Source: Liolophura sinensis
Lineage: Eukaryota; Mollusca; Polyplacophora; Chitonida; Chitonidae
NCBI RefSeq assembly: GCF_032854445.1
Contig: NC_088306.1
Span: 20,989,764-21,053,763 of the forward strand
DNA: 64,000 nt
Direction of reading: 5' to 3'
Shown here piece after piece: positions 1 through 64,000 of the stretch (position 1 is its first letter; the number at the start of each line of letters is the position of its first letter). The position numbers and the translations under genes are program-made. The notes below the pieces were generated by a model. The model ran no database searches. It saw only the letters and a list, made by a program, of their open reading frames with translations, and was not told the DNA's origin.

Positions 1-2926
1 ATAGCATTGGGCAGAAGATACCAAACCTTTTGAAATGTCCACACAACGACCCAGGCTGAAACACAAAACAAGTTTTGTGTATCCCTGGAGGAACACTTTT
101 GGATGTTTCTGGTAGCATCAGTGTTAGACCAATAATATTTGTTCATGACATGTTCTTAGCTCAGTGACATTTACTCAGATGGGGTACCCTAGGTGGACAA
201 AGACATGTTCTACATGAAAAATTTTACATATCAGAAATAGAAAGAGCTTTGTAGCTTGTCGGTGCTATTTTCTTAGCACATAGTGATTCCTGGTGGATTA
301 ATATATACTGTCTATGTTTGCTTTTTATGAACATTATTTTGAGTTTTTCGTTGTAAGATATGCCAGAATACAAATGTTTAGATATGTGACATTAGGAAAC
401 GCTTAAATACGTTCATTCTACGTACGATTCTCCCCAGGGGGAAAGGAAAGGACCTGGTGCGGTCAGGCGGAGAATCGGCCCCAGAGAGGTACGATAAGAA
501 AGTGCTAATTTCAAAATCCCAGCACAATTCAGTAAATTTCGCAATCAGTAGTATAAGACTTGCTCGAAGCACACATGAAAATTATAATTTTGTAAAAGAG
601 ATGGTTGCTTAGGAACAACCCTTTAAAACGCCCACTCGATCAAAAATGCTAATTTTTCGTTCAAACCAGGCACTGTTTTTAATTTACAGTATGAAGATTA
701 ACGTTAACTAGAAAAATATCTTTACTGAAAGTTTCATCTTTTTTTTTTCTACGTGCTGTCAAAGTTTCGTTGGTTAACATTTGTCTTCATGTGTAAAACA
801 ACAACTTCATACTGTGATGAGTTTCGTCATGTTTTAGCAAGTGTAAAGTCTGTGTTTTGTGCCACGATCTGTTAGGCATTTTCCACAGTACACTGGACTA
901 ATAAAGTTACTGTGGAGAACAGTTTGCATATCCGGTAAAAGTACGACTTTTTGTGCCTCTTGTTGTTTTTTTCTTTGAAAAGATGCTTTTGAATGAGTAA
1001 GGATGTAGGCCGTCTTGCATTGAATAAGTGTTATCATGGATTAGAATGGATAAGCAATGATGTTACGTGATATATGGCAACCATAGGGACATCATACGTG
1101 AATCCTGGCTGAGAGTACTGTTACGCGTAGAGGAAGTTTAAGGCTGAAAATTAATATTTGTTATATATCTATTTAATTGATTGGTGCTTAACGGCGTGCT
1201 CAAGGATTTTTTTAGAAAGTTACATTTGTAGTTCAGCGATTTTCATAACTCTACAATGCCTAATGCAAAAAAAAGGTATTTCTCTGTGACTGGAGCCGGA
1301 TAGAAGTTTTCTAGTTTACGACTTATACATCGATTCAGCGCATGTTTGGAGCTTTATAAGCCGCATGCTTGCCATATAACAGAAACGGACCAGTAAAATA
1401 GAAATGAAAAAAGTAGCCTTACCACTCACATATGTAGTCAGTTTCGGTACTTAAGGTTCACAGATCAAACGGGCATGTTTGTTCTGTATAAATGGAGAAG
1501 GTATACTGTTTGTTCTTGTGTGGAAAACGTCAATAATTAAAGCTTTCTCTCTCTACTTGTTGCATTTGCTTTGGCCGGTTTTATCAGAAAACATGTTAAT
1601 CAATTCGTTATTATTTGAACTGATTTATAATTGGTGACTGACTACATGCTTGCTTTGACATTACGGACAACTCTTGCTAAAAATAGAGACACTTAACTGT
1701 TGCGTTTCTACTACACCTGTGCAGCAGGAGTTCAGGCAAGCCAGTGGTGAAAGACATTGTAGAGAATCTGTAGTGAATCCGGTTACGGACAGCATTACTA
1801 GAGGTGAATGTGCAGTGATGTTAATTGAAATATATTTGACGTTACTGGTTTAACTTTACAAGGTACAATAATAGGTTAAAATATTTTAAAAGACACCCAT
1901 GGCTGCGGTACTGCACAGGTGGCGTTAAGCCATTATTATTCACTTGTGATACTGGGACACTGTGACTACCATTGTGTGCGTTACCTTGCTGAACCATTTA
2001 ACCAAAGACACAAGGATAACCAGAGCTAAAGAAACCACCGGGATTAGAATCGGTGCTTATCTCGGTGCTTCCGTCAGTCAATTTCCTTCTTCAAGCACAG
2101 GGGAGATCAGTGAAATGTCTGACGAATTTAGTTAAATCTCACAAATTTCTTTTCGAAGAACCAAGGTCTCAACAGTCATTCCAAGACCGGCATCTCAAGG
2201 TGCTGGTCAGAACGCACAACCTGATTTACTCGGACGTTATGTAGAACTTACGAATATATGAAAATAGGTGTGATATATCATCGGGACGGTCACATACATT
2301 TCTGGGTAAATTACATAAAGGGATATCTCTAGCTCAGTCTTCCTCTCTACGCAGGGATATAAGTTATGGGTCATATTCAACAAAAACGCACATCACTGAA
2401 TATGCGTTTTAGGAAATCTGACAACTGCTGCTCACAAAATGAATTCAACGAGTTTGTTGATATAAGGCGTAGGTGAGTTTTGAGGGCCATTTAACACTGA
2501 GGACTAGACAGACTAATGCGGAAAACCATCTTGATACAAAACATTAATTACACCTTAATCAGGTCAGCAGCAAATATGAAACTCAATGCTGATTGGCTGA
2601 TAAACCTCCAAAAATGTCACATTGGGTTACACCTTAATCTTGTTTACCTGAAAAATAATGGAAAACATTACAATTGCAAATATTACATGCACTTAAATAT
2701 TGGATGTTAACTAAACAGGAGGGTTGACATCTTTATGCCAAATGAACGTGTATTTGTTTCTCCATTGGTAATGTGTCTCCATGACATATCAGAGAGGCTA
2801 AGCTGGTGTGTACCGACAACTCAAGGGATTGTAAGCAAGTTAACGTTGACAAACAGCATGTCTAACTAGCTAAATATTTGCTTACGACCAGAACTGTAAG
2901 GTACACATTGACGAGAAAATCAAATT

Positions 2927-2934
2927 TATAAAAG
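2927..2934 (+). promoter_or_regulatory. TATA box of GPCR copy 1
   Basis: Sequence TATAAAAG, a consensus TATA box about 290 bp before the GPCR start codon. It is preserved exactly at 7519 and 63849 and degraded at 59262. This is the best visible core-promoter candidate. The start site would then fall near 2957, leaving a 5' UTR of about 270 bp. Confidence 0.6.
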
Positions 2935-3058
2935 GGACCGTGATTTGCCGGCTGCATCTGCTAAAACGTCTTGCTAAAAGGTCTTGCAGCTTTCTCTTAT
3001 AGTTTGTGACTTCGTTTGATTCCTATATTGAAACAATCAGATGCCTGTTTTCTTCGAT

Positions 3059-3073
3059 GTTACCCATGGTAAC
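3059..3073 (+). promoter_or_regulatory. RFX-type X-box, GPCR copy 1
   Basis: GTTACCCATGGTAAC matches the X-box consensus GTNRCC-N(0-3)-RGYAAC perfectly, with symmetrical 6-bp arms and a 3-bp spacer. It lies about 150 bp upstream of the GPCR ATG and about 125 bp after the TATA box. It is conserved at 7651 and 63981, with one mismatch at 59461. X-boxes are bound by RFX factors and are typical of ciliary or ciliated-neuron genes. The role here is inferred. Confidence 0.55.
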
Positions 3074-3224
3074 AGCAGGGCATGACAGACGTAAATATAA
3101 GCAAAAGTCGGTTATGAACTAAACGACATTGGTTCTTCTCTGAAGATCACATGCGATAATACCTAGTTAACAATGCAAGAAATTTGAAAGGTGTCAACAC
3201 AAGAACCACAATCACAGATCTATC

Positions 3225-4331
3225 ATGGAGATTCCAGAGTCAATCATTCCCTTCAACTTCACCAACTGTAGCACAAGCCTTGCTGAAGTCGGTCAGACAA
3301 ACATCACCTTGCGTCCGATTTTCGCGAGCGAAGTTGCTCAGGCTGACCTCTCTGTTCCTGTGTGGCATCAAATTTACACTGTCTGTGTCTCAGTGGTGGC
3401 CACACTAGCTAATCCTATCGTCATTGTCTGCTTGTGGCGAGATCCCGGTTCGGAGGTTTCTGGCTTCTCTACCTACGCTGTCTCAGTGGCGTTCACCGAT
3501 TTACTGGTAGGTGTAGTTCTTATGCCTGTTAAATTTATTGAAGCGATGTTGACAACCTGGCCCTTTGGACTCGCTGGCTGCATTTTGTGGAGACAAATCG
3601 ATTTTGGACTGACTTCTGTGTCCGTGTTTCTCTTTCTGGCCATGGGTTACGATCGGTACCGTTGTGTGACAGCCCCTCTACAGTATCGTTCTCAGTTTAA
3701 GACAACCAAGGCGGCTTGGATATCGGTATTTGTGTGGATAGTAGGCTTTGTTTTATGGACACCGTATTTATTACTGAAAATATTTATGCATCAGGTCAAC
3801 TGCATTTTGTTTACTTTTGGACCTAATGTTTTAGAAGTAATCCAATTTACTGTAGCCTACTACATTCCCATTTTAGCACTTATTATAATGAACAGTATTT
3901 TGATATGGACACTGAACACCCGGATTCCCCGATCACAATCGTCAGCAGTCAACAGCCGGCGGACGCCAGCTGACATTTTAACGGTGACTGACGTCAATGG
4001 GCATCACTCCAGGTCATGTGAACCTGTGACAAATGTGTCCGTAATGGGAGTGAACAGAGGATATGTGGCGAAGAAGAGGCGTTCAGGAATGGCCTCAAAT
4101 TATAAAATTGTCCTCCTGGTGGTCGTGTTTTGTGTATGTTGGCTGCCATATTGCATCACGTGGCCTGCAAATGGGCTGTGTCCCACGTGCATTTCAGAAG
4201 AAATCAGATATATTTTTGGATACTTTCCTTATGGACAATCGGCCATTAATCCGTTGATCGTTATTTGCACAAGTCCACAAATTCGTACCAAGCTAGCTCG
4301 TGCATGCACTGTGCATTTACGGAAAAAGTAA
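3225..4331 (+). CDS. Rhodopsin-family GPCR, aminergic-like (paralogue 1)
   Basis: Single-exon seven-transmembrane receptor of 368 residues. The extracellular N-terminus has sequons at N11, N14 and N26. Landmarks: N63 (1.50), D92 (2.50), C119 (3.25), D126 (3.32), DRY at 143-145, W171 (4.50), P215 (5.50), C-W-L-P-Y at 305-309, ECL3 cysteines 319 and 322, Y336 (7.43), and N342-P343 (7.49-7.50). D3.32 and Y7.43 are typical of amine receptors, and the ECL3 cysteine pair recalls muscarinic and histamine receptors; the ligand is unknown. Oddities: NPxxY reads NPLIV, so Tyr7.53 is Val. TM1 has the residues around N63 changed to LANP, where the paralogues have P/A-A-N-L. The third intracellular loop is about 60 residues and basic. 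The start was chosen because all paralogues share M-[DE]-[IT]-x and the Phe-Asn-Phe-Thr-Asn-Cys block. Confidence 0.93.
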   Translation: MEIPESIIPFNFTNCSTSLAEVGQTNITLRPIFASEVAQADLSVPVWHQIYTVCVSVVATLANPIVIVCLWRDPGSEVSGFSTYAVSVAFTDLLVGVVLMPVKFIEAMLTTWPFGLAGCILWRQIDFGLTSVSVFLFLAMGYDRYRCVTAPLQYRSQFKTTKAAWISVFVWIVGFVLWTPYLLLKIFMHQVNCILFTFGPNVLEVIQFTVAYYIPILALIIMNSILIWTLNTRIPRSQSSAVNSRRTPADILTVTDVNGHHSRSCEPVTNVSVMGVNRGYVAKKRRSGMASNYKIVLLVVVFCVCWLPYCITWPANGLCPTCISEEIRYIFGYFPYGQSAINPLIVICTSPQIRTKLARACTVHLRKK

Positions 4332-7300
4332 ATACTTTCCCGGTAAGGGTTTTCGCTATTCGCTTGTGGTGATTCATCCATTGTACACGTGATAAGCAAT
4401 TACTTATGAGAACGAGGAGCTTGAGCCCCCAGGTCCTGTGTTACCCCTTACCAGATGTGTACCCGAGATCAAACACCTCAAGCGATTGCCGATAACCTAC
4501 TGTGTTAAATACGCCATGTGCTTCATTTTGCGTATTGCCCATTTTCGAGGATCATTCTTGTTGTATTGAAAGATAATGACATTGGGCAGAAGATACCAAA
4601 CTTTTTGAAATGTCCACACAACGACCCAGGCTGAAACACAAAACAAGTTTTGTGTATCCCTGGAGGAACACTTTTGGATGTTTCTGGTAGCATCAGTGTT
4701 AGACCAATAATATTTGTTCATGACGTGTTCTTAGCTCAGTGACATTTACTCAGATGGGGTACCCTAGATGGACAAAGACATGTTCTACATGAAAAATTTT
4801 ACATATCAGAAATAGAAAGAGCTTTGTAGCTTGTCGGTGCTATTTTCTTAGCACATAGTGATTCCTGGTGGATTAATATATACTGTCTATGTTTGCTTTT
4901 TATGAACATTATTTTGACCTTTTCGTTGTAAGATATGCCAGAATGCAAATGTTTAGATATGTGACATTAGGAAACGCTTAAATACGTTCATTCTACGCAC
5001 GATTCTCCCCAGGGGGATAAGGAAAGGACCTGGTGCGGTCAGGCGGAGAATCGGCCCCAGAGAGGTACGATAAGAAAGTGCTCATTTCAAAATGCCAGTA
5101 CAATTCAGTAAATTTCGGAATCAGTAGTATAAGGCTTGGTCGAAGCACACATGAAAATTATAATTTTGTAGAAGAGATGGTTGCTTAGGAATAACCCTTT
5201 AAAAATGCACACTCGATCAAAAGTGCAAATTTTTCGTTTAAACGAGGCACTGTGTTTTTTATTTACAGTATGAAGATTAACGTAAACTAGAAAAATATCT
5301 TTACTGAAAGTTTCTTCTGTGTTTTTTTTCTACGTGCTGTCAAAGTTTCGTTGGTTAACATTTGTCTTCATATGTAAAACAACAACTTCATAATGTGATG
5401 AGTTTCGTCATGTTTTAGCAAGTGTAAAATCTGTGTTTTGGGCCACGATCTGTCAGGTATTTTCCACAGTACACTGGACTAATAAAGTTACTGCGGAGAA
5501 AAGGTTGCATATCGGGTAAAAGTACGAATCTTTGTGCACCTTGTTGTTTTTTTTCGTTGAAAACATGCTTTTGAATGAGTAAGGATGTAGGCCGTCTTGC
5601 ATTGAATAAGTGTTATCATGGATTAGAATGGATAAGCAATGATGTTACGTGATATATGTCAACCATAGGGACATCATACGTGAATCCTGGCTGAGAGTAC
5701 TGTTACGCGTAGAGGAAGTTTAAGGCTGAAATTCATATTTGTTATATATCTATTTAATTGATTGGTGCTTAACGGCGTGCTCAAGAATTTTTCAGAAAGT
5801 TACATTTGTAGTTCAGCGATTTTCATAACTCTACAATGCCTAATGCAAAAAAAAAGGTATTCCTCTGTGACTGGAGCCGGATATAAGTTTTCTAGTTTAC
5901 GACTTATACATCGATTCAGCGCATGTTTGGAGCTTTATAAGCCGCATGCTTGCCATATATCAGAAACGGACCAGTAAAATAGAAATGAAAAAAGTAGCCT
6001 TACGAGTGTGTGTCAGCAGCCGTCACTCACAGATGTAGTCAGTTTCGCTACTTAAGGTTCACAGATCAAACGGGCATGTTTGTTCTGTACAAATGGAGAA
6101 GGTATACTGTTTGTTCTTGTGTGGAAAACGTCAATAATTAAAGCTTTCTCTCTCTACTCGTTGCATTTGCTTTGGCCGGTTTTATCAGAAAACATGTTAA
6201 TCAATTCGTTATTATTTGAACTGATTTATAATTGGTGACTGACTACATGTTTGCTTTGACATTATGGACACCTCTTGGTGAAAATAGAGACACTTAACTG
6301 TTGCGTTTCTACTACACCTGTGCAGCAGGAGTTCAGTGGTGAAAGACATTGTAGAGAATCTGTAGTGAATCCGGTTACGGACAGCATTACTAGAGGTGAA
6401 TGTGCAGTGATGTTAATTGAAATATATTTGACGTTACTGGTCTAACTTTACAAGGTACATTAATAGGTTAAAATATTTTAAAAGACATCCATGGCTGCGG
6501 TACTGCACAGGTGGCGTTAAGCCATTATTATTCACTCGTGATACTGGGACACTGTGACGACCATTGTGTGCGTTACCTTGCTGAACCATTAAACCAAAGA
6601 CACAAGGACAACCAGAGCTAAAGAAACCACCGGGATTAGAATCAGTGCCTATCTCGGTGCTTCCGTCAGTCAATTTCCTTCTTCAAGCACAGGGGAGATC
6701 AGTGAAATGTCTGACGAATTTAGTTAAATCTCACAAATTTCTTTTCGAAGAACCAAGGTCTCAACAGTCATTCCAAGACCGGCATCTCAAGGTGCAGGTC
6801 AGAACGCACAACCTGATTTACTCGGACGTTATGTAGAACTTACGAATATATGAAAATAGGTGTGATATATCATCGGGACGGTCACATACATTTCTGGGTA
6901 AATTACATAAAGGGATATCTCTAGCTCAGCCTTCCTCTCTACGCAGGGATATAAGTTATGGGTCATATTCAACAAAAACGCACATCACTGAATATGCGTT
7001 TTAGGAAATCTGACAACTGCTGCTCACAAAATGAATTCAACGAGTTTGTTGATATAAGGCGTAGGTGAGTTTTGAGGACCATTTAACACTGAGGACTAGG
7101 CAGACTAATGCGGAAAACCATCTTGATACGAAACATTAATTACACCTTAATCAGGTCGGCAGCAAATATGAAACTCAATGCTGATTGGCTGATAAACCTC
7201 CAAAAATGTCACATTGGGTTACACCTTAATCTTGTTTACCTTAAAAATAATGGAAAACATTACTATTGCAAATATTACATGCACTTAAATATTGGATGTT

Positions 7301-7518
7301 AACTAAACAGGAGGGTTGACATCTTTATGCCAAATGAACGTGTATTTGTTTCTCCATTGTTAATGTGTCTCCATGATATATCAGAGAGGCTAAGCTGGTG
7401 CGTACCGACAACTCAAGGGAGTGTAAGTAAGTTAACGTTGACAAACAGCACGTCTAACTAGCTAAATATTTGCTTACGACCAGAAGTGTAAGGTACACAT
7501 TGACGAGAAAATCAAATT
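4332..7518 (+). other. Intergenic flank between GPCR copies 1 and 2
   Basis: This is the 3' flank of copy 1 and the 5' flank of copy 2, colinear with 1-2926. It also matches 60680-63848. I find no exon, RNA gene or SINE. The conservation is explained by recent duplication. Confidence 0.8.
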
Positions 7519-7526
7519 TATAAAAG
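7519..7526 (+). promoter_or_regulatory. TATA box of GPCR copy 2
   Basis: TATAAAAG in the same relative position as at 2927, about 290 bp before the copy 2 start codon. Confidence 0.6.
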
Positions 7527-7650
7527 GGACCGTGATTTGCCGGCTGCATCTGCTAAAACGTCTTGCTAAAAGGTCTTGCAGCTTTCTCTTATAGTTTGTG
7601 ACTTCGTTTGATTCCTATATTGAAACTATCAGATGCCTGTTTTCTTCGAT

Positions 7651-7665
7651 GTTACCCATGGTAAC
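7651..7665 (+). promoter_or_regulatory. RFX-type X-box, GPCR copy 2
   Basis: GTTACCCATGGTAAC, identical to the copy 1 motif at 3059 and about 150 bp before the ATG at 7817. Confidence 0.55.
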
Positions 7666-7816
7666 AGCAGGGCATGACAGACGTAAATATAAGCAATAGT
7701 CGGTTATGAACTAAACGACATTGGTTCTTCTATGAAGATCATATGCGATAATACCTAGTTATCAATGCAAGAAATTTGAAAGGTGTCAACACAAGAACCA
7801 CAATCACAGATCTATC

Positions 7817-8899
7817 ATGGAGATTCCAGAGTCAATCATTCCCTTCAACTTCACCAACTGTAGCACAAGCCTTGCTGAAGTCGGTCAGACAAACATCACC
7901 TTGCGTCCGATTTTCGCGAGCGAAGTTGCTCAGGCTGACCGCTCTGTTCCTGTGTGGCATCAAATTTACATTGTCTGTGTCTCAGTGGTGGCCACACCAG
8001 CTAATCTTATCGTCATTGTCTGCTTGTGGCGAGATCCCGGTTCGGAGGTTTCTGGCTTCTCTACCTACGCTGTCTCAGTGGCGTTCACCGATTTACTGGT
8101 AGGTGTAGTTCTTATGCCTGTTAGATTTATTGAAGGGATGTTGACAACGTGGCCCTTTGGACTCACTGGCTGCATTTTGTGGAGACAAATCGATTTTGGA
8201 CTGACTTCTGTGTCCGTGTTTCTCTTTCTAGCCATGGGTTACGATCGGTACCGTTGTGTGACAGCCCCTCTACAGTATCGTTCTCAGTTTAAGACAACCA
8301 AGGCGGCTTGGATATCGGTATTTGTGTGGATAGTAGGCTTTATTTTATGGACACCGTATTTATTACTGAAAATATTTATGCATCAGGTCAACTGCATTTT
8401 ATTTACCTTTGGACCTAATTTTTTAGAGGTTATCCAATTTACTGTAGCCTACTACATTCCCATTTTGGCACTTATTATAATGAACAGTATTTTGATATGG
8501 ACACTGAACACACGAATTCCTCGATCACAATCGTCAGCAGTCAACAGCCGGCGGACGCCAGCTGACATTTCAACGGTAACTGACGTCATTGGGCATCAGT
8601 CCAGGCCATGTGAACCTGTGATGAATGTTTCCGTAATGATGTCAAAGAAGAAACATTCTAAAATGACCTCCATTTATAAGATCGTCATCCTGGTTGTCGT
8701 TTTCTCTGTGTGTTGGCTGCCATATTGCATCACGTGGCCATTGGATGGACTGTGTCGCATGTGCATATCGGGTGAGGTCAGACAAATTTGTGCACTCCTC
8801 ACCTATGGACAGTCCGCCATTAATCCGTTGATCGTCATCTGCACAAGTCACCAAATCCGCTCCAAGATAGCCCGCACATGTGTAAAGCAAACAACGTAA
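7817..8899 (+). CDS. Rhodopsin-family GPCR, mosaic (paralogue 2)
   Basis: Single-exon receptor of 360 residues. Residues 1 to about 270 are almost identical to paralogue 1, including D3.32 at 126, DRY at 143-145 and the TM5 proline. TM1 has the family-typical P-A-N-L. From about residue 274 it switches. The loop-to-TM6 stretch reads S-K-K-K-H-S-K, resembling the minus-strand paralogue at 40.3 kb (S-K-K-R-H-S) rather than copy 1. TM6 is C-W-L-P-Y, TM7 Y-G-Q-S-A-I-N-P-L-I-V, and the tail ends V-K-Q-T-T. The switch coincides with loss of 3' flank homology, so this gene looks like a recombinant between subfamilies. The reading frame is intact, so it is probably functional. Confidence 0.92.
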   Translation: MEIPESIIPFNFTNCSTSLAEVGQTNITLRPIFASEVAQADRSVPVWHQIYIVCVSVVATPANLIVIVCLWRDPGSEVSGFSTYAVSVAFTDLLVGVVLMPVRFIEGMLTTWPFGLTGCILWRQIDFGLTSVSVFLFLAMGYDRYRCVTAPLQYRSQFKTTKAAWISVFVWIVGFILWTPYLLLKIFMHQVNCILFTFGPNFLEVIQFTVAYYIPILALIIMNSILIWTLNTRIPRSQSSAVNSRRTPADISTVTDVIGHQSRPCEPVMNVSVMMSKKKHSKMTSIYKIVILVVVFSVCWLPYCITWPLDGLCRMCISGEVRQICALLTYGQSAINPLIVICTSHQIRSKIARTCVKQTT

Positions 8900-12596: not shown

Positions 12597-13358
12597 CTAG
12601 AGATCACGCAACACTCCTTCGAACATGTGACATGCAGGACCAATTAGATACACGTCTGAGAATTCCCTCTCACCCACGCGCAAAGCCGTCACCGTTAGTG
12701 TCCCAAGACGAACTCTGACATTAACTTTCACTGACGTCGGTTCAGTGAACGCTGACCCTCGACTTACCGTGACAAGCGCAGCGCCAGTTCCACACGCCAG
12801 CGTCTCGCCGTTGACGCCGCACTCGTAACTTCGCATGGAAATCTCACTCGTTTTTTCGGGGCAAGTTTGGACGTAAGCTTTGACAAATCCCTGTTTGTGT
12901 CCGGTGTCATATATTTTCCGAAGTTCATCGCCATCCTGCTGAACGTCAATGCTTTCTAGGTCGTCAAAGTATGCAACGAGGGTTAAGGTGCCGGTAAAAA
13001 TCTGATAATTATTGTTTACCACTCTATCAATCCCCCTGTCTATGTCTTTCATCTTAAGATGCACCAGGCCAGACTGACTGTCCACACGGCCAACGTGTTC
13101 TCCGTCGTATGCACAGAACGTAACATCCTCGTCTGCCGAAGCCAGGCCAAGCTGAATTGCAAACTTCACAGCACAACGCCCACCGATCTCCACCAACCCG
13201 TCCGCACCAATCCCAGTTCTAGGCTCGCATAATCTGACGACAAAAGTTTCTTGAGAGACGTCTATCCGCCTGTCTCTGTTGTCCATAAATATGAAATTGT
13301 TTCCCAAAGCGTTGTACTTTGAAAATTCCATTGTTTGTACCCGCCAGCAACTGTTCAT
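12597..13358 (-). CDS. Diaminopimelate epimerase-like protein (DapF fold), active-site deleted
   Basis: Intronless frame of 253 codons. The real start is probably the second Met (13331), giving M-E-F-S-K-Y-N-A-L-G-N-N-F, the standard DapF opening. Bacterial DapF interconverts LL- and meso-diaminopimelate with two catalytic cysteines. The G-I-G-A-D-G-L strand is followed directly by G-G-R-C-A-V-K-F, so about 20-22 residues that normally hold N-A-D-G...C-G-N-G, with the first catalytic Cys, are missing in frame. The second motif (E-T-L-A-C-G-T-G-A-A) is present. The substrate-contact segment before the D-D-L-E strand is altered (T-L-T for an expected x-P-H), and the G-T-N-V-N-F segment is shortened. 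Epimerase activity is therefore unlikely. Animals lack this pathway, so bacterial origin by transfer is inferred. A decayed paralogue lies at 54930-55560. It may be a domesticated protein or a young pseudogene. Confidence 0.75.
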   Translation of the reverse strand: MNSCWRVQTMEFSKYNALGNNFIFMDNRDRRIDVSQETFVVRLCEPRTGIGADGLVEIGGRCAVKFAIQLGLASADEDVTFCAYDGEHVGRVDSQSGLVHLKMKDIDRGIDRVVNNNYQIFTGTLTLVAYFDDLESIDVQQDGDELRKIYDTGHKQGFVKAYVQTCPEKTSEISMRSYECGVNGETLACGTGAALVTVSRGSAFTEPTSVKVNVRVRLGTLTVTALRVGEREFSDVYLIGPACHMFEGVLRDL

Positions 13359-18047: not shown

Positions 18048-18883
18048 TCAGAGTTTGATGTCACAGAACGACTTTTGGATTCGTCTAATTCTGGCCTCCC
18101 ACTCTGTTCGTTCTGGACCCGATATCCCCCACTTTTGTCGCTTGTGCACTGGCAAAGACGGACGATTCCACAACTGGAAATTGATATCCACCATTTCTTG
18201 TCGTCTGCCTAACAGAGACGACTGTATACCTTCGTGCTGGAATATTGTCGGTCGAGACACATATCGTTTAAACTGTAGATTAATTTCATTGAAATGAAGA
18301 TAGAGGACGTCATTTGGTTGCTCGCTGTAGAATAAGGTAAGAAATTTGGCTAGCTTCGCAACGTCTGGAGAACGGTAAAACTTTCCAATGAATCCGATCT
18401 CTGAGAATTCCAGGCACACCCATTCGGGAACCTTTCCCATGAATCTTCTGATAGCTGTGACGTAACCAGGCACTGTAATAACGTCATCCTCCAGTTGAAG
18501 GTAGTATGCGGATATACGCTCGCTGTACGTCATCAAGAAGGCAAAGTCTAAGTTCTGCTTTGAGCGCCACCTGACGCGGGAAACGCTGTGGTTGTACGTC
18601 ATTTCTAGATAATCGGGTGGGGTCGGATACAAAGTTGGATAAAAACTGTCCGGTGCTTCGATAGTTTGAAGTAGACCTGACTGGAAATGCTTTCGGTATT
18701 TATGAAGCAGCTGAACGTTGATCGCTTCTCGCGACGTTATCTCTCGGTCCGCCAACAAGACGACAATGGTGACGCTCTGACGTTCGTTTACGTCGGTGTT
18801 ATTTATCAGCGAGTCTAGGGTCAGTTGAATGTATTGGGTACCATTTGGTCTGGACGCAGTCGGAATGCCAATAGTCATGAAAC
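18048..18883 (-). CDS. GT54 (MGAT4-like) catalytic-domain exon A
   Basis: Last exon of an N-acetylglucosaminyltransferase-IV-like gene. Family members add beta-1,4-GlcNAc to the core alpha-1,3-mannose arm of N-glycans in the Golgi. The exon begins after a clear acceptor (pyrimidine tract, CTTTCAG) in phase 1, giving G-F-M-T-I-G-I-P-T. Other landmarks are S-G-L-L-x-x-I-E-A-P, R-V-R-W-R-S-K-Q-N-L-D, Q-L-E-D-D (metal-site acidic motif), L-E-F-S-E-I-G-F-I-G-K and I-F-Q-H-E-G-I-Q-S-S-L. The frame stops 50-60 residues later, so the C-terminal lectin-like region of vertebrate MGAT4A/B is absent. The N-terminal anchor must lie in an upstream exon, none of which is visible nearby. Apparently intact. 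Confidence 0.85.
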
Positions 18884-19214
18884 CTGAAAGAGCAGACGAA
18901 GTCTCACTGTATTTATGTGTTATATATTTGATTAATGTTTGGCGCAGAATTAACACATTTTTATTATACGATGGTAACAGAGAACGTCCGCCACCTGCCT
19001 AGGCGCTCTTTCCTCAAAGCCAGTTTTGACTAAGGTCAAATGTTGAATTGTTATTCAACTCGCCTACTTTTTGATAATATGATCTAAAATTCGGAATATG
19101 AACTGAGTGTTATTTTATAAAGTTGAATTTCAAAAAGTCCATGTAGAATTTGCCCCAGGTACCTAACAAACAGTTTAAAACAATCTCAAAATCGGAACAA
19201 GTCGAAAAGATGGA
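18884..19214 (-). other. Intron or upstream sequence of GT54 exon A
   Basis: Begins with the acceptor and pyrimidine tract of exon A. No upstream exon was recognised before the repeat-rich stretch that follows. Confidence 0.5.
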
Positions 19215-22085: not shown

Positions 22086-22933
22086 TCAAGACTTTTTTCT
22101 TTCTTCCCACAGTTCTTGTTCAGGACCTTCTTGATTGTTCAGTCGTCTGATTTCAGCTGGAATTAATCCCTTTCTTTCAGAGCTAGAATCGTTCATGGAA
22201 GCATTCGGGCTGAACATTAGGTCTATCAGGGGCTCTCGTTTGCGATGGAGGCTCGAAACGAATCCTCTGTGTTGAAATATGGTAGGTTTCCTAAGATACC
22301 TCCTAAACTGGAGCATCATTTCGTTAAAGTGAAGGAGGAGGACGTCGTTGGGTTGTTCATTGTAGAAAAGTTTAAGGAGGCTGGCTAACTTCGTGAGATC
22401 GTACGAATGAAAGAGTTTTGCAATGAAGCCAAGTTCACTGAACTCCAAACAAGTCCACACGCCCGACCACCAGTCCTGTCCTGCTTTTCTGTTTATTCTG
22501 GCAATGTACTGTTTTATTAGCCTCACATATATGGGCACAGTAACTACGTCGTCTTCCAACTGAAGATAAAACTCAGAGATGCTTTGACTTTATTGCATGA
22601 GGAAGGCAAAATCGAAATTCTGTTTTGAACGCCAGATGATCTGATCCATTGGATGCTTGTAAGTCGTCCTAAGGTTAGACAAGGACGGATAAAACTCACG
22701 CGGTGCTTCAATGATCTGGATGAAGCCAGAGTCGATGTAGGTTGGGTAAATCAATGTGATTTTTGTCCTCAACTCGCTTCGCAAACTTGGATCAAAATCT
22801 GACAAGAAAACAACTACCACAACTTCACTTTTGTCCTCTTCTCTGCTATGTTTGATCAAAGAATCTAGTGTCTCCTGTAGGTACCAGCGATCAGACCGTC
22901 TGTGCATTGTCGGGAGGCCTATGGTCAGGAATC
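22086..22933 (-). pseudogene. GT54 (MGAT4-like) exon B with in-frame stop
   Basis: Homologous end to end with exons A and C: acceptor TTTTTACAG then G-F-L-T-I-G-L-P-T; R-S-K-Q-N-F-D-F-A-F-L-M; Q-L-E-D-D-V-V; L-E-F-S-E-L-G-F; F-Q-H-R-G. The frame holds throughout except for one TAA at 22590-22592, where exon C has a Tyr codon after L-M. The stop lies just before the E-D-D motif, so any product would lack the catalytic centre. A single-base change explains it. It could be a young pseudogene, an allelic null or a sequencing error. Confidence 0.82.
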
Positions 22934-23642: not shown

Positions 23643-24535
23643 TTATTTCCCTTTTAGTTGGCAAAATATCTCCTTAAAACGCCTTTTCCTTTCTTCGACC
23701 ATTGGCTGCTCTGGACCTTGCAGATAATTTATTCGTCTACGTTCAATGGGAAGAACTGTCTTCCTGGTCTGCTTCGAAATGAAATGACTCATAGAAATAT
23801 TCAGGCTGAACATCACGTCTTTCATGGGGTTCCGTCTTAAAACGAGGCTGGGTATGTTCCCTTGATGGTGAAATATGATAGGCGTTCTAATGTACCGCTT
23901 AAACTGCAACATCATCTCATTAAAGTGAAGGAGGATGACGTCATTTGGCTGTTCATTATAGAAGATCATGAGAAGTCTCGCTAACTTAACGAGATCATAC
24001 GAATGAAAGAGTTTAGCGAGAAAACCCTGATCACTGAATTCTACACAAGTCCACACACCTGGCCAGTATAGATCTTCGGCTTTTTCTTTGGTTATTTTTC
24101 GTATGAACAATTTTATTGTAAACACATAATTGGGCACAGTGACAACGTCGTCTTCCAGCTGAAGATAAAACTCTGAAATGTTTTGGCTATAGAGCATCAG
24201 AAAGGCGAAATCCACGTTCATTTTGAATCGCCATACAACCTGGTCCACTGGGTGCTGATAAGTCGTCTTTAGGTTAGCAAAAGATGGATAAAACTGACTC
24301 GGTGCTTCAATAATCTGGATAAAACCAGAGTCAATGAACATTTGGTAATTCGCTGCAAGTTTTCTCTTCAATAAGTTTCTAATAATTGGGTCAAAATCTG
24401 ACAAGAAAACGACTAGCACGATTTCGCGTTGTCTGTCCCAAAGGCTGCTGTGTTTGATCAGCGAATCTATAGTGTTCTTTAGATACCAATAACCTGGCCC
24501 TCTGTAAATTGTCGGGAGGCCTATTGTCAGAAATC
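23643..24535 (-). CDS. GT54 (MGAT4-like) catalytic-domain exon C
   Basis: Intact 297-codon terminal exon. A strong acceptor (T11 tract then CAG) gives phase-1 G-F-L-T-I-G-L-P-T. It carries V-V-F-L-S-D-F-D, S-G-F-I-Q-I-I-E-A-P, F-Y-L-Q-L-E-D-D-V-V-T-V-P, C-V-E-F-S-D-Q-G-F and I-F-H-H-Q-G-N-I-P-S-L. One family-conserved stretch is changed: W-R-x-K-Q-N reads W-R-F-K-M-N, so substrate handling may differ. The stop is followed at once by AATAAA. It is a tandem paralogue of B (closest) and A. The Golgi signal anchor must come from an upstream exon; the only visible candidate on this strand is at 37511-37616. Confidence 0.85.
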
Positions 24536-25107: not shown

Positions 25108-28100
25108 AGTTGCAAAAGACTGACAGAATACAGAATGTCTCGCTCAGCCACATAAACACTGGCAGAACACAGAATGTCTCTACTGGTCACATAAATACTG
25201 ACAGAATACAGAATGCCTCACTCAGCCACATAAACACTGGCAGAACACAGACTGTCTCAACCGGTCACATAAATACTGACAGAATACAGAATGTCTTAAC
25301 CGGTCACATAAATACTGACATCACACGGAATGTCTCAACCGGTCACATAAATACTGACATCACACGGAATGTCTCAACCGGTCACATAAATACTGACAGA
25401 ATACAGAATGTCTAACTCAGCCACATAAACACTGGCAAAACACAGAATGTCTCAACTGGTCACATAAATACTGAAAGAATACACAATATCTCACCCGTCA
25501 CATAAATACTGACACAACACATTATGTCTCCCACAGTCAAATAAGTACATATAGTATACTAAGTACATATAGTATACTGATCTAACTGAAAATGTCTCAC
25601 CCATCCACATAAAAACTGACCTAAATCAAAATGCCTCACCCAGCCACATAAATACTGGCTGGACACAGAATGTATCACCCAGCCACATAAATACTGGCTG
25701 GACACAAAATGTATCATCCAGCCACATAAATACTGGCTCGACACAAAATGTCTCATCCAGCCACATAAAAACTGGCTGGACACGAATTGTCTCACCCAGC
25801 CACTTAAATACTGGCTGGACACAAAATGTCTCACCCAGCCACATAAATACTAACTGGACACAAACTGTCTCACTCAGCCACATAAATACTGGCCGGGGAT
25901 ATGTCTCACCCAGGCACATAAAACCTGACCTAAATCAAAATGTCTCACCCAGCCACATAAATACAGACTGGAGAAAAAATGTCTCACCCAGCCGCATAAA
26001 AACTGACTGGACACAATGCGTCTCACCCGCACCCAGCCACATAAAAACTGGCTGGGAACTAAATGTCTCACCCTGCCACATAAATACTGACCTAACTCAA
26101 AATGTTTCACCCAGCCACATAAATACTGGTTAGACACAAAATGTCTCACCCAGCCGCATAAAAACTGACTGGACACAATGCGTCTCACCCTCACCCAGCC
26201 ACATAAAAACTGGCTGGGGACTAAATGTCTCACCCTGCCACATAAATACTGACCTAACTCAAAATGTTTCACCCAGCCACATAAATACTGGTTAGACACA
26301 AAATGTCTCACCCAGCCACATAAATACTGGCTGGGGACAAAATGTCTCACCAGGCCACATAAAAACTGACCTAACTGAAAATGTCTCACCCAGCCACATA
26401 AATACTGACTGGCCATAAAATGTCTCACCTAGTCAATTAAATACTGGCTGGACACACAATGTCTCACCCAACCACATAAATACTAACTTGACACAAACTG
26501 TCTCAGTCAGCCACTTAAATACTGGCAGAACACAGAATGTCTCACTCAGCCACATAAGCACTGGCAGAACACAGAATGTCTCAACCAGTCACATAAATAC
26601 TGACTGGACACAAAATGTGTCACCCAGCCACAAAATACTGGCTGGAGACAAAATATATCACCCAGCCACATAAATACTGACAGAACACAGACTGTATCAC
26701 TCAGCCACATAAATACTGACAGAACACATTATGTCTGCCCCAGTCAAATATGTAAATGTATGCTGACCTAACAGAAAATGTCTCACCCATCCACATAAAT
26801 GCTGACCTAACTCAAAATGTCTCACCCAGCCACTTAAATACTGGCTGGAGACAAAATGTCTCATCTAGCCTCATAAATACTGACAGAACACAGAATGTCT
26901 CACTTAAGCACATAAATACTGGCAGAACACAGAATGACTCACCCAGCCACTTAAATACTGGCACAACACAGAATGTCTCATCCGGTCACATAAATACTGA
27001 CAGAATACAGAATGTCTCACTCAGCCACATAAACACTGGCACAACACTGAATGTCCCATCCGGTCACATAAATACTGACAGAATACAGAATGTCTCACTC
27101 AGCCACTTAAATACTGGCACAACACAGAATGTCTCATCCGTCACATAAATACTGACAGAATATAAAATGTCTCACTCACCCACATAAACACTTGCAGGAC
27201 ACAGAATGTCTCAACCGGTCACATAAATACTGACAGAATACAGAATGTCCCACCCAGCCAGATAAACACTGGCAAAACACAGAATGTCTCAACTGGTCAC
27301 ATAAATACTGACATCACACAGAATACAGATAATCTCACTCACCCACATAAACACTTGCAGAACACAGAATGTCTCAACCGGTCACATAAATACTGACATC
27401 ACACAGAATACAGAATGTCTCACTCACCCACATAAACACTGGCAGAACACAGAATGTCTCAACCGGTCACATAAATACTGACAGAATACAGAATGTCTCA
27501 CTCTCCCACATAAACACTTGCAGAACACAGAATGTCTCAACCGGTCACATAAATACTGACAGGATATAGAATGTCTCACTCAGCCACATAAACACTGGCA
27601 GAACACAGAATGTCTCAACCGGTCACATAAATACTGACAGAATATAGAATGTCTCACTCAGCCACATAAACACTGGCAGAACACAGACTGTCTCAATCGG
27701 TCACATAAACACTGACATCACACAGAATGTCTTAACTGGTCAGATAAATACTGACAGCATATAGAATGTCTCACTCAGCCACATAAACACTGGCAGAACA
27801 CAGGCTGTCTCAACCGGTCACATAAATACTGACAGAATATAGAATGTCTCACTCAGCCACATAACACTGGCATAACACAGAATGTCTCAACCGGTCACAT
27901 AAATACTGACATCACACGGAATGTCTCAACCGGTCACATAAATACTGACAGAATACAGAATGTCTTAACCGGTCACATAAATTCTGACACAACAAATTAT
28001 GTCTCCCACTGTAATATGAGTACATGTGTAATGGCCTACCACATAAATACTGGCTGGAGACAAAATGTTTCCCCCGGTCAAATAAATACTGACAGAACAC

Positions 28101-28394: not shown

Positions 28395-29625
28395 GCCTGG
28401 CTGGTTTTACTTGTAAAGAGCTTCGCTGGTTCTACTTATAAAAGACTTCTCTTGTCTTACTTGTAAAGGACTCCGCTAGTTCTACTTATAAAACACTTCT
28501 CTTGTCTTACTTGTAAAAGATTCCGCTAATTCTACTTATAAAAGACTTCTCCTGTCTTACTTGTACAGGACTCCGCTAGTTCTACTTATGAAAGACTTCT
28601 CCTGTCTTACTTGTACAGGACTCCGCTAGTTCTACTTATAAAAGACTTCTCTTGTCTTACTTGTAAAGGGCTCCGCTAGTTCTACTTATAAAACACTTCT
28701 CCTGTCTTACTTGTAAAGGATTCCGCTAGTTCTACTTATAAAACACTTCTCCTGTCTTACTTGTAAAGGGCTCTGCTGGTTTTACTTATAAAACACTTCT
28801 CTTGTCCTACTTGTACAGGACTCCGCTAGTTCTACTTATAAAACACTTCTCTTGTCTTACATGTAAAGGACTCCGCTAGTTCTACTTATAAAAGACTTCT
28901 CCTGTCTTACTTGTAAAGGACCCCGCTAGTTCTACTTATAAAAGACCTCTCCTGTCTTACTTGTACAGGACTCCGCTAGTTCTACTTATAAAACACTTCT
29001 CTTGTCTTACTTGTACAGGACTCCGCTAGTTCTACTTTTAAAAGACTTCTCTTGTCCTACTTGTAAAGAACTCCGCTAGTTCTACTTATAAAACACTTCT
29101 CCTGTCTTACTTGTAAAGGACCCCGCTAGTTCTACTTATAAAAGACTTCTCTTGTCTTACTTGTAAAGGACCCCGCTAGTTCTACTTATAAAAGACTTCT
29201 CTTGTCCTACTTGTAAAGGACTTCGCTAGTTCTACTTATAAAACACTTCTCTTGTCCTACTTGTAAAGGACTCCGCTAGTTCTACTTATAAAAGACTTCT
29301 CCTGTCTTACTTGTAAAGGATTCTGCTAGTTCTACTTATAAAACACTTCTCTTGTCTTACTTGTACAGGACTCCGCTAGTTCTACTTATAAAAGACTTCT
29401 CTTGTCCTACTTGTAAAGGACCCCGCTAGTTCTACTTATAAAAGACTTCTCCTGTCTTACTTGTAAAGGATTCCGCTAGTTCTACTTATAAAAGACTTCT
29501 CTTGTCCTACTTGTAAAGGACTTCGCTAGTTCTACTTATAAAACACTTCTCCTGTCTTACTTGTAAAGGACTCCGCTAGTTCTATTTATAAAACACTTCT
29601 CTTGTCTTACTTGGAAATGCCTCCG
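28395..29625. repeat. 50-bp minisatellite, about 24 copies
   Basis: Unit CTCCGCTAGTTCTACTTATA, then AAAGACTTCTCTTGTCTTAC and TTGTAAAGGA, period 50 bp. A few sites alternate (CTTGTC/CCTGTC, AAAGAC/AAACAC, GTAAAG/GTACAG) and recombine among units, which suggests unequal exchange. The 28129-28394 spacer separating it from the 39-bp array has no gene. Confidence 0.95.
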
Positions 29626-31435
29626 CTTGTTACCACGAGTTCACGACAATAACCACGACATTTATAAAGTTGCGTATATATGTACGAGACAGCTAGATTC
29701 GAATACACAACACCCAACCTGATGAATTTCTTTGGGATGATGTTCACAAAAATGTTCACAAAAATGGTGTTTGCGATTCCTGAAAAGGAGTGATCTACAC
29801 CACCCTAATGGCGTCCTCTGTTGCGTCCTAATGATTTTAAGCCTTCCTCTCGTCGCCGTCGATCACTTTGACCATTAAGCTCACAGACGTGAATCCAGCC
29901 CTCACAGGAGGTTTGTTAAGGGGCGAGTGCACAAAGCCACGTTTAGGCTTAAGTTATACTTAATAAAATGTGAGTTAAACATTTATTTTTGAATTTTACA
30001 TGCTTTAAATAAAAAACATTTGGGGATCTTGGGCCATAAATTGCGCATTTTGTCTGTTTCGAGGTTTCAAAACTTGACTTAATTCAATTTGTGGAATAGA
30101 CCCTGGTACCGGAAGTAGGTGTTTCATTGCGAGAACTTCCACTTCTTCCATTTATGAAACTTATCACCTTCAGAAATGTTGAGTGTCACGTTAAGTAACA
30201 ATCAAATAAATAAATACTCTTATTAAACCATGTCAGATTTGTCAAGGCCCTAATATCGTGATTAAGATGAATTGCTTGTAATTTGCAGAAGTTGAAGACA
30301 TGTTCTACGGCAAACACAAATAAAGTACAACACGAAGAATAATTACCTTTTTTCTCCCGCCTCTTGCCGGCAACAAGTGCGCTTTGGTACATTTCCTCCG
30401 TAAACTCTCCGACACCCTGTCAGAAAAAAATAGTTGTAGTTTCATCCACTTTTTGTTCCCTGAAAACTGCTTTTTTATTATTCGGGATCGTATCTAAAAA
30501 AATAATTCATTCATATATCATCGACAGGGGCTGACAGTCGTGTTGATATAAAGGAAAATAGGGCACATTTTTTAGGCATGTTACGACTGTATCTCAGCAA
30601 AATTTTGTATGTCACAGAAATATTATACACTGCCTTCACTTTTTTTCTTGTAGAGCGTACCACGCTGTCGCCGCATCTCTGGTTTTACTCTGTATGCAAA
30701 TCCGGAGTGTTGAGAATAGGTATAACATGGTTTGCTTGTTTGCCTGTTGTTTAAACACCATGCTCGGATTTTTTCTACTCATATGACGGCGGTAAGCATC
30801 ATGAGTGGAAGAAACCGAAGTGCTTGAATTATAAACCAACAAGTTTAGGCAAATTATTAACGAAGTTTTCATGTGTGACGTACAAATATAGACCCCATAT
30901 TCAAATTTGGTGAAAAACAAATGGTCTTTAACAAATGTTAGGCTCTTACAACTGTCACTCGGTAGTTGTCAATAGCTTACTGTCACCAAGGTCAAACGAA
31001 GACTAACAGCGGAGTAATATACCCAATCCCTGAACTATTTTTATCAAGTTTGAGGCTGTTTTTCTTCTATGACTTTGACAGCCATTCTCCTTAAACTCCA
31101 GACCGGTAGAAGACGTGTAGTCTGTTTCTAGAACAATACTTTCAGTATGCTTGCTCTAATGGAATATAAGCTCGATTATCACATCAGTCCAATCTACAAA
31201 TTATACACAATCGATCTACACCGGAATCAGCAATAAACAATCTATACGTATATGATAGAGTGAATGACTGGTGAACTTACCGCAGAGTGTAAGTGTTTTG
31301 GAACTTGTCTTAAAGTCGCTTCATCTCAAAATGGTAAAAACAGAAAAAAACGAAAAAGAATCAAAACATACTGTGGACGTTATCACCCACTTCCAATCAA
31401 AAATTGTCTTCAAAGATTTTGTTTCCTTTTGCCTA
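29626..31435. other. Gene-poor AT-rich stretch
   Basis: No exon supported on either strand. An edge resembling the 15738 element begins near 29918. Confidence 0.4.
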
Positions 31436-35639: not shown

Positions 35640-37125
35640 TTACCTGACAAACCTCCGCTCAGCATTGGTTACCTGATAAACCACCACCCATCACCATGTA
35701 ACTGTCAAACCAACGCCCATCATCAGGCACTTGGCAAATCACTGCCCATCACCAGGTACCTGACAAACCTCCGCTCATCACCAGGTACCTGACAAACCAC
35801 CGTTCATCACCAGGTACTTGACAAACCACAGCTCATCACCAGGTACCTGACCACCCTCTGCTCATCACCAGGTATCTGACAAACCACCGTCCATCACCAG
35901 GTACCTGACAAACCACCACTCATAATCAGGTGTCTGACAAACCTCTGCTCATTAACAGGTACCTGACAAATCACTGCCCATCACCAGGTATTTGACAAAC
36001 CACCACCCATCGCCAGGTATCTGGCAAACCACTGTCTCTAACCAGGTATTTCACAAACCACCGCCCATCACCAGGTACTTGACAAATCACCGTCAATCAC
36101 CAGCTACCTGACAAACCTCCGCTCACCACCAGTTACCTGCAAAGCAGCGTGCATCACCAGGTACCTGACAAACCACAGCTCATCACCAGGTATCTGGCAA
36201 ACCTCCGCTCATTAGCAGGTACCTGACAACCTCTGCTCATCAACAGGTACTTGGCAAATCAGCTCCCATTAGCTGGTACCTGACAAACCACCACCCATAA
36301 CCATGTACCTGACAAACCAACGCCCATCCCCAGGTACCTAACAAGCCAACACCCATTACCGGGTACCTGACACACCACCACTAATCACCAGTTACCTGAG
36401 AAGCCACCGCTCCCCACTAGGCACCTGTCAAACCACCATCTATCACCAGGTACCTAACAAACCACCGCCCATTACCATGTAAATGACAAACCACCGCCCA
36501 TCATCAGCAACCGGGCAAACCACCGTCCATCACCAGGTACCTGACAAACCCCTGCTCATCAGTATGTACCTGGCAAACCTCCGCTCATCTCTATGCACCT
36601 GACAAACCTCCACTCATCACCAGGTATCTGACAAACTACCACCGATCATCAGGTATCTGACAAACCATCATCCACCACCATACACCTGACAAACCACCGC
36701 ACATCACCAGGTGCCTAACAAACGACCACCCATGCAGCTGACAAACTACCGCTATTCACTAGGTGCCTGACACTCCACCGTCCATCACCCCGCAATTCAC
36801 AAACCACCGTCCATCCGTAGGTACCTGACAAACCACCGCTCATCATCAGGTGACTGACAAAACTACCGCTCGTCACTAGGTACCTAACAAACCACCGTCC
36901 ATTACCAGGTACTAACAAACCACCACTGATCATCAGGTAGTTGACAAACCGTTTCATACAACATGTGCCTGACAACCACGTCAATCACCAGGTGCATGAC
37001 AAAACCACCGCTCATCACCAGGGACCTGACAAACCACCGTTCATCACCAGGTACCTGACACACCACTTCATATCACTATGTACCTGACAACTACCGTCCA
37101 TCACCAGGTAACGGACAAACCTGCC
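35640..37125. repeat. 29-bp minisatellite, about 50 copies
   Basis: Unit ACAAACCACCGCCCATCACC then AGGTACCTG, period 29 bp, diverged among copies. Most units contain the palindrome CAGGTACCTG (KpnI site, E2-box-like half-sites). The array lies in the candidate intron between the signal-anchor and CTLD exons. Confidence 0.93.
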
Positions 37126-40335: not shown

Positions 40336-41412
40336 TTACTTTGACCGTGAAAGACATACACAAGCTCTGGTTATCCTTGAGCGGATCCGGCGACTTGTAG
40401 AAATGACGATCAGCGGATTAATGGCGGACTGTCCATAAGTGAAGAATCCACAAAACTCTGTCACCTCATCCGTTATGCACGTGCGACACAGTCCGTTTAC
40501 TGGCCATGCGATAAAATATGGCATCCAAAACACACAGAAAATCACGACCACGATAACAATCTTATAACTGGAGGCATTTCTCGAATGCCTCTTCTTCGAC
40601 ACCTGTTTTCTGCTCGCCATTATTTCTGACCCACACATCACATGACGACATGGCCTGGAATGATGCCCGATTGTGTCACTCACTGTTGAAATGTTACCTG
40701 GTATCTGTCGACCGTTAGCTGCTGATTTACGTGATAGGGAAATCCGTGTGTTCAGTGTCCATAGCAAAACGCTGTTCATTATAATCAGTGCAGTCAGAGG
40801 AATGCAGAATGCTATTGTCACTTGTATTGCCTCAAAAACATTAGCTCTAAAGATAAAGACAGGACAATTTGAGTCAAACGACTTCCTCTCGTTCAGCAGT
40901 ACTTTTAACAATGTGTAAGGTGTCCATAAGATAAAACCTCCTATCCACACACATACGCACATCCGGGTTATCTGGGTTGTTCGAAACTGAGAACGGTATT
41001 GAAGTGGAGCTGTCACACATCGGTACCGATCATAGCCCATGGCCAGAAAGAGCAACATGGACACAGAAGTCACCCCATAGTCGACAAGTTTCCACAAAAT
41101 GCAAACAGTCAGTCCGAACACTTGTTCTGCCCATAACGATCTCATCAGTCTAAAAGGCATAAGAACGACACCTACGAGTAAATCAGTGAACGCCATGGAG
41201 ACAGCGTAGGTAGTGAAGCCAGAAACTTTCGAACTGGGGTCTCTCCACAGGCAGACAATGACGATAAGATTAGCTGCAGTCGCCACGACAGAGACACAGA
41301 CAGTGTAAATGTGATGCCACACGGGAACCGAGAAATCAGTCTGAGCGACTCCAGGGAGGCTTGTGCTGCAGTTGGTGAAGTTGAAGGGAGTCATTGACAC
41401 AGCAGTCTCCAT
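40336..41412 (-). CDS. Rhodopsin-family GPCR, aminergic-like (paralogue 3)
   Basis: Single-exon receptor of 358 residues sharing the N-terminal Phe-Asn-Phe-Thr-Asn-Cys-Ser-Thr block. D111 (3.32) lies 18 residues before R129 of DRY, as expected. TM4 ends L-W-T-P-Y. TM6 has F-W-M-P-Y in place of C-W-L-P-Y, so W6.48 is kept but Cys6.47 is Phe. TM7 is Y-G-Q-S-A-I-N-P-L-I-V, again with Val at 7.53. The third intracellular loop is about 60 residues and ends S-K-K-R-H-S-R. The tail contains C-V-C near its end, a possible palmitoylation site. It is clearly diverged from the young array and belongs to an older part of the cluster. Ligand unknown. Confidence 0.93.
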   Translation of the reverse strand: METAVSMTPFNFTNCSTSLPGVAQTDFSVPVWHHIYTVCVSVVATAANLIVIVCLWRDPSSKVSGFTTYAVSMAFTDLLVGVVLMPFRLMRSLWAEQVFGLTVCILWKLVDYGVTSVSMLLFLAMGYDRYRCVTAPLQYRSQFRTTQITRMCVCVWIGGFILWTPYTLLKVLLNERKSFDSNCPVFIFRANVFEAIQVTIAFCIPLTALIIMNSVLLWTLNTRISLSRKSAANGRQIPGNISTVSDTIGHHSRPCRHVMCGSEIMASRKQVSKKRHSRNASSYKIVIVVVIFCVFWMPYFIAWPVNGLCRTCITDEVTEFCGFFTYGQSAINPLIVISTSRRIRSRITRACVCLSRSK

Positions 41413-42296: not shown

Positions 42297-42489
42297 CACA
42301 GTCTAAGTGGCATAAGGACGATATAATCAAAATGTAAAGTATACAGACGAAAAAAGAGCAGAACAAAAGAGACACTGACCGTGTAAATCTGACGCCACAA
42401 GGGACCAGTGTGCAGTCTGGGCCACTTCAGAAAAGCTTGTACTAAATTTGGTGAAACTGAATGGAGCGATTAACACAACAAATGTCCAT
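42297..42489 (-). pseudogene. GPCR N-terminal remnant
   Basis: The complement from 42489 starts ATGGACATT, and then, after an indel, encodes A-P-F-S-F-T-K-F-S-T-S-F-S-E-V-A-Q-T and a TM1 start (x-I-Y-T-V-S-V-S). This matches the family opening with frameshifts. Near 42300-42325 a TM2-end match (V-L-M-P-L-R-L) follows after a large internal deletion. Nothing of TM3-TM7 remains. The sequence upstream of it (42.5-44.0 kb) matches the 5' flank of paralogue 4, so a whole unit was duplicated and then lost. Confidence 0.72.
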
Positions 42490-59261: not shown

Positions 59262-59267
59262 TATATA
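59262..59267 (+). promoter_or_regulatory. Degraded TATA box of GPCR paralogue 6
   Basis: TATATA with altered flank (ACGGAACC) replaces the TATAAAAGGGACC of other copies. It may be weaker. Confidence 0.4.
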
Positions 59268-59460: not shown

Positions 59461-59475
59461 GTTACCCATGGTAAG
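59461..59475 (+). promoter_or_regulatory. X-box with one mismatch, paralogue 6
   Basis: GTTACCCATGGTAAG: the final C of the second half-site is G. The other half-site is intact. Confidence 0.45.
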
Positions 59476-63995: not shown

Positions 63996-64000
63996 AGCAG

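Follow-up and report, generated by a model that had tools for sequence, protein, structure and literature searches.

The receptor array

The window (the whole stretch of 64,000 nucleotides that was analysed) contains six intact receptor genes, referred to here as g1 to g6, and the remains of two others:

3225–4331 (+): g1, intact intronless rhodopsin-class receptor, 368 aa
7817–8899 (+): g2, receptor, 360 aa, apparently chimeric
40336–41412 (−): g3, older paralogue, 358 aa
46394–47464 (−): g4, older paralogue, 356 aa
51770–52840 (+): g5, older paralogue, 356 aa
59627–60679 (+): g6, young paralogue, 350 aa, with a 54-bp in-frame deletion just before TM1
55784–56264 (+): pseudogene within the young array, the 3′ remnant of another receptor copy
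42362–42470 (−): probable N-terminal relic of a dead receptor (tblastn, two short pieces, best E 8e-5)

The six intact ORFs are intronless, encode 350–368 aa, and all matched 7tm_1 (PF00001) with 109–127 bits against a cut-off of 30.5. DRYR, Asp 3.32, and Tyr 7.43 were present in six of six receptors, and NPLIV or NPLII replaced NPxxY in all of them (residue numbers were counted by hand from DRYR and INPL). D3.32 and Y7.43 are features of aminergic receptors. When g1, as the only query, was searched against solved structures, muscarinic, histamine, beta-adrenergic, dopamine, and serotonin receptors and TAAR13c were among the best 60 of 482 matches. The V or I that ends the NPxxY motif in g1 to g6 distinguishes them from the aminergic and TAAR receptors. 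In general description the genes also resemble the Aplysia AcCRa–c receptors, which are rhodopsin-class and whose subfamily b consists of 38 full-length intronless genes of 319–364 aa (PMC2700072); the presence of D3.32 and Y7.43 sets g1 to g6 apart from them.

The g6–g1 comparison gave a dN/dS of 0.60, and the other 14 of the 15 receptor pairs gave 0.27–0.41. This ratio and the 54-bp deletion indicate that g6 may be under relaxed constraint; it was not called dead because TM1, judged by eye, keeps its hydrophobic stretch. Per 100-column bin, g2 differs from g1 by 0%–5% up to about nt 750 and by 13%–64% thereafter, 3′ flank included. It looks like a chimeric receptor, as would result from unequal crossing-over or gene conversion, and the X-box-bearing 5′ part described below therefore appears joined to another receptor end. 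With the 3′ remnant, the probable relic, and this chimera, the array shows a pattern of tandem expansion and of birth and death.

Several other features were recorded in the window. An intronless ORF at 12597–13358 (−), in DNA that appears to be of animal origin, belongs to the diaminopimelate epimerase family (PF01678, 8e-12; TIGR00652, 80 bits, below the cut-off of 114.65). One relative, with 31% identity, was confirmed in the single bacterial genome scan, and fragments of a second copy (54939–55073 and 55426–55566, +; 63%–64% aa identity) lie near the receptor pseudogene; lateral acquisition of this ORF is possible. The MGAT4 conserved region (PF04666) is present in three ORFs (18048–18956, 22086–22559, and 23643–24419, −), perhaps a small glycosyltransferase array within the receptor cluster. 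Large minisatellites with units of 39, 50, and 29 bp occupy 25115–28005, 28407–29631, and 35641–37121, respectively, and GC skew goes down to about −0.3 in the 26–28 kb and 36–38 kb bins. A tRNA-like match at 55233–55304 (−; Rfam RF00005, 32.1 bits), where ARAGORN found no tRNA, looks to be in a tRNA-derived SINE; the type of SINE and the GC content are suggestive of a mollusc.

The X-box-like dyad and its copies

A palindrome resembling the X-box of RFX factors had been predicted ahead of the young receptors. Four copies were located:

3057–3075 (+): X-box-like dyad of g1, ATGTTACC-CAT-GGTAACAG, with 7-bp arms; the exact 15-mer is at 3059–3073
7651–7665 (+): dyad copy of g2, exact
59461–59475 (+): dyad copy of g6, last base C to G
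63981–63995 (+): dyad copy in the unit truncated at the end of the window, exact

Exact matches to GTTACCCATGGTAAC at 3059, 7651, and 63981, and a match with one mismatch at 59461, are present just where the original prediction placed them. The arms measure 7 bp (TGTTACC-CAT-GGTAACA) in all three exact copies, and the receptor that belongs to the copy at 63981 (hereafter the end copy) falls outside the window, past its end. The predicted distances needed correction. In g1 (3225), g2 (7817), and g6 (59627), the dyad precedes the ATG by 166 bp and not by about 150 bp. Its spacing from the TATA position, supposedly always about 125 bp, is 132 bp in g1, g2, and the end copy, all of which have TATAAA; in g6, whose TATATA is separated from the dyad by extra sequence, it is 199 bp. 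The dyad had also been described as absent near g3, g4, and g5. This holds for the 700 bp upstream of each of them, where the best match has 4 mismatches, but by the degenerate consensus GTNRCC-N0-3-RGYAAC a site at 50376 (−) lies 1,397 bp upstream of g5 and another at 52995 (+) lies 155 bp past the g5 stop (g5 distances were measured from the second in-frame ATG, 51773). The dyad is limited, as predicted, to the young sublineage (g1, g2, and g6) among the six receptors in the window.

These two sites and the three exact array copies make up the five window sites of the degenerate consensus, for which 60 shuffles gave a mean of 0.58 per window and a maximum of 4. The search for GTTACCCATGGTAAC at up to 3 mismatches returned 12 rows against 1.8 expected, a count that includes opposite-strand readings of the exact sites and a duplicated CDS site (3646/8238/59994). 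As a single event the perfect palindrome is beyond chance, though the motif was chosen after the fact. The window holds 105 perfect dyads with 6-bp arms, and matching one of them to a known factor is therefore partly post hoc.

All copies of the dyad are inside duplicated blocks. Positions 4580–8871 match 5–4297 with 95.0% identity, and 59730–64000 match 3382–7670 with 96.5%. The part upstream of g6 is more diverged, with 88.0% between 57820–59307 and 1467–2971 and 93.6% between 59400–59729 and 2998–3327. Overall, identity is 95%–99% among g1, g2, and the end copy and 87%–94% for the upstream part of g6. A further block joins the two ends of the window (1–3078 and 60924–64000, 99.2% identity), which may indicate that a block of about 61 kb is itself repeated or that the assembly has placed two haplotypes side by side. 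Since the 1.0–1.2 kb upstream of g1, g2, and the end copy are 98.2%–99.4% identical, the identity of 15 bp among these three is uninformative. The original prediction had itself named recent duplication as a possible cause of this identity, and our results bear that out. The copies are segmental duplicates, so the dyad counts about once and not as a fourfold recurrence beyond chance. It is one ancestral sequence, and the identity among its copies is due to recent copying.

The only copy informative about conservation of the dyad is that of g6, compared with g1, and as a single comparison it is weak. Changes were found at 18 of 227 noncoding sites and at 1 of 15 sites in the dyad, which places the dyad at the background rate. 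Among the 213 windows of 15 bp in this comparison, 72 had no change, 63 had one, and 78 had more. Conservation of the X-box above background in related promoters was thus not found between g6 and g1.

A shared element upstream of each receptor lineage

The coding sequences of g1, g3, g4, and g5 are separated by dS values of 0.58–0.81, and the best local alignments of their upstream regions converge on one block. The element in this block was found 5′ of all six receptors, of the end copy, and of the probable receptor relic:

2796–2822 (+): shared upstream element of g1 (GGCTAAGCTGGTGTGTACCGACAACTC)
2927–2933 (+): TATA-like sequence of g1 (TATAAAA); the element core lies 121 bp before it and the dyad 132 bp after it
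7395–7414 (+): shared upstream element of g2, 1 mismatch
59132–59151 (+): shared upstream element of g6, 2 mismatches
63725–63744 (+): shared upstream element of the end copy
51297–51316 (+): shared upstream element of g5
47800–47819 (−): shared upstream element of g4, 3 mismatches to the CTGGTGTGTACCGAMMACTC pattern
42055–42071 (−): shared upstream element of g3, 2 mismatches to the shorter pattern
43103–43122 (−): shared upstream element ahead of the probable relic of a dead receptor, 3 mismatches

Each intact receptor lineage in the window has this element of about 26 bp, distinct from the dyad, upstream of the coding region. It reads GCTAAGCTGGTGTGTACCGACAACTC in g1, GCTAAACTGGTGTGTACCGAACACTC in g5, GCGAAGCTTGTGTGTGCGGACCACTC in g4, and GTTTAGCGTGTGTGTGCCTAACACTT in g3, and in the intact receptors its core lies 352–659 bp away from the ATG. 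The pattern CTGGTGTGTACCGAMMACTC at up to 3 mismatches had 7 matches in the window and none in 100 shuffles; only those at g4 and at 43103 are independent matches, because g1 and g5 were the source of the pattern. A shorter pattern, fitted to g4 as well, occurred at 9 places against 0.12 expected and added g3 and a weak site at 44971–44987 (−). The latter, in the interval between g3 and g4, has 2 mismatches and is probably due to chance; its core failed to line up with the other elements.

We scored each 17-mer in the 600 bp upstream of g1, on the same strand, against all three upstream regions of g3, g4, and g5. The top 8 windows were all the shared element, and the X-box windows ranked 368 and 458 of 584. 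The best summed mismatch, 9, was unreached in 200 dinucleotide shuffles (lowest 11). The 3′ flanks had no comparable block, their best summed mismatch being only 13.

Pairwise alignments of the upstream regions differed in strength. Within g3, g4, and g5 the block is homologous, with scores of 30–32 against control maxima of 19–20 (200 block-wise shuffles each), and the similarity spans roughly 100–200 columns (about 100 for g3–g4 and about 200 for g3–g5). The pairs g1–g5 (22 vs. 20), g6–g3 (21 vs. 19), and g6–g5 (24 vs. 21) were narrowly above their controls, and three of the nine pairs did not exceed them: g1–g3 (15), g1–g4 (16), and g6–g4 (14). The alignments of g1–g3 and g1–g4, though not above the controls, traverse the same shared element; that of g6–g4 does not.

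With loose patterns, a TATA-like sequence was found 95–121 bp after the core in g1, g2, the end copy, g5, and g4. In g6 two such matches lie no more than 50 bp from the core and a third is at 126 bp; none was found after the core in g3 or in the relic. Another candidate, element B (GBTTRCGRSCRGNWCT), lies between the shared element and the TATA in g1, g2, g6, the end copy, g4, and g5. It was not counted because its 17 matches (3 expected) include many unrelated places.

Interpretation of the element and the dyad

The shared upstream element is, from these comparisons, a better supported finding than the RFX/cilia reading of the dyad. We consider it probable (about 0.62) that the element is the promoter module of the family and that the X-box-like dyad hitch-hiked with duplication. 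Transcription of each receptor would depend on a promoter of the TATA type, which in g1 and g2 lies about 300 bp ahead of the ATG. Expression of the whole family would be set by a regulator that binds the element, roughly GYTAAGCTKGTGTGTRCSGAACACTC. The dyad, situated about 100 bp past the likely start site, would have been carried along with the duplicated unit and would not define expression. Two findings count against hitch-hiking: the rarity of the palindrome when taken as one event (the perfect 6-bp-arm form, GTTACC-N0-3-GGTAAC, averaged 0.03 per window in 60 shuffles), and the position of the dyad inside a 31-bp run that is identical in g1, g2, and g6 and is the second longest in the 227-bp stretch. 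Weaker constraint on g6 could also explain its dyad mutation without the dyad being idle.

As an analogy for the shared element, the ADL E-box of Caenorhabditis elegans (CACCTG, HLH-4), reported in 68 of 73 ADL sensory receptors of the GPCR and rGCY types (PMC5908064), seems better than the dual signature of X-box and FKH-8, which is reported in 62% of core and 6% of subtype-specific ciliome genes (PMC10393296). In both the ADL receptors and the present array one element is common to a battery of receptor genes, here to all lineages in the window. The present element, GTGTGTRCSGAACACTC, is a putative regulatory sequence, different from the E-box and longer.

It is quite improbable, in our estimate, that the element is non-regulatory, for instance a first exon that is noncoding but conserved, or part of some other feature copied with each receptor. 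The case for its function is drawn from conservation and position, and its distance from the ATG is variable, which would suit such a passive feature. However, it sits 5′ of every intact receptor, and the best alignments between lineages (dS 0.57–0.83) fall mostly on the block, g6–g4 being the exception. Mere shared descent fails to explain its retention, because the alignments between lineages favour the block and the 3′ flanks have none. A role of the dyad in RNA is the least credible of the readings and very unlikely: it would tune translation by folding into a hairpin whose loop carries the AUG of a short upstream frame. Use of the TATA would place the dyad in the leader, its AUG begins a frame of 18 codons in g1 and g6, and the predicted fold of g1 has a 7-bp hairpin. 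The fold is nevertheless ordinary for its composition (z −1.5 in g1 and −0.6 in g6, which has a shortened stem), the frame of g2 has only 13 codons, and a spliced leader is a possible alternative. The AUG of the dyad is not special, since the leaders of g1, g2, and g6 have 7, 8, and 10 upstream ATGs, respectively. A splice-donor reading of CATG|GTAAC/GTAAG was considered and not adopted.

In another reading, which we regard as doubtful, the dyad functions as an RFX site that arose in the ancestor of g1, g2, and g6, and it adds RFX input, and with it expression in ciliated cells, on top of the family promoter. The 2-bp AT spacer 14-mer is the preferred X-box form of C. elegans and mammals. The spacer of the dyad is CAT, of 3 bp, and the 14-mer GTHNYYATRRNAAC has a single site in the window (46076) and none at the dyad positions. 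Three of the four copies match the published consensus GTNRCC-N0-3-RGYAAC exactly (that of g6 fails at the last base), and RFX dimers are reported to bind inverted repeats of this type (PMC10530576). The spacer is not disqualifying, because RFX targets in flies include 3-bp spacers: among RFX-dependent genes, 16 of 23 have a conserved X-box, and the first listed Drosophila melanogaster site has a 3-bp spacer in 4 of these 16 (PMC2375033). One of the four, CG18631, has GTTGCC CAT GGCAAC, with the same spacer as the dyad, but it and another are 2.5–2.7 kb upstream; the remaining two are 60 and 71 bp from the ATG (PMC2375033). The same source gives palindromic sites as over-represented in RFX targets and places 12 of the 16 fly sites 60–321 bp before the ATG, a range that includes the dyad. 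The location of the dyad downstream of the likely TATA, a difference from the X-box of ciliary promoters, is no objection, since the robust window for human X-boxes extends from −500 to +500 around the start site (PMC5838959). The original prediction is partly supported: the dyad fits the consensus and lies in the usual range of positions, but g6 shows no conservation above background.

The changed base in g6 is the outer base of a half-site, and none of the older paralogues has the dyad within 700 bp; its confinement to a single sublineage would fit a gain in the ancestor of the young genes. According to PMC2375033, presence of an X-box alone is "not predictive" of RFX dependence in flies, and conservation of both site and position separates RFX targets from controls; in g6, the sole comparison available, the dyad does not show this combination. 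The genes concerned are receptors and not core ciliary genes, unlike those with the X-box of ciliary promoters. The evidence from gastropods points both ways: Aplysia receptor cDNAs came from ciliated rhinophore groove tissue, but the antibody to AcCR29b, a candidate chemoreceptor, labelled cells whose processes are described as "containing no apparent cilia" (PMC2700072). Among the literature matches listed, titles and abstract openings that join RFX or the X-box with chemoreceptors or molluscs did not mention an X-box in a chemoreceptor array, and no paper was on promoter motifs of gastropod chemoreceptors by its title. An RFX/cilia role for the dyad is possible, and the one comparison able to support it does not. 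We think it unlikely that both ideas apply in full, with an element close to GYTAAGCTKGTGTGTRCSGAACACTC defining the battery and the expanding sublineage capturing an RFX site downstream of the TATA, so that its receptors moved into ciliated sensory cells and the site spread with the amplified unit and onto the chimeric g2.

A motif common to recent duplicates is weak evidence of function. An element common to old paralogues, in upstream DNA that otherwise aligns poorly, is much stronger evidence. If the shared element is the promoter of a receptor battery, it could serve to search for the whole family in its genome and could lead to the regulator by which these receptors are chosen. An X-box that also works would mark a dated gain of ciliary input by a receptor family undergoing expansion.
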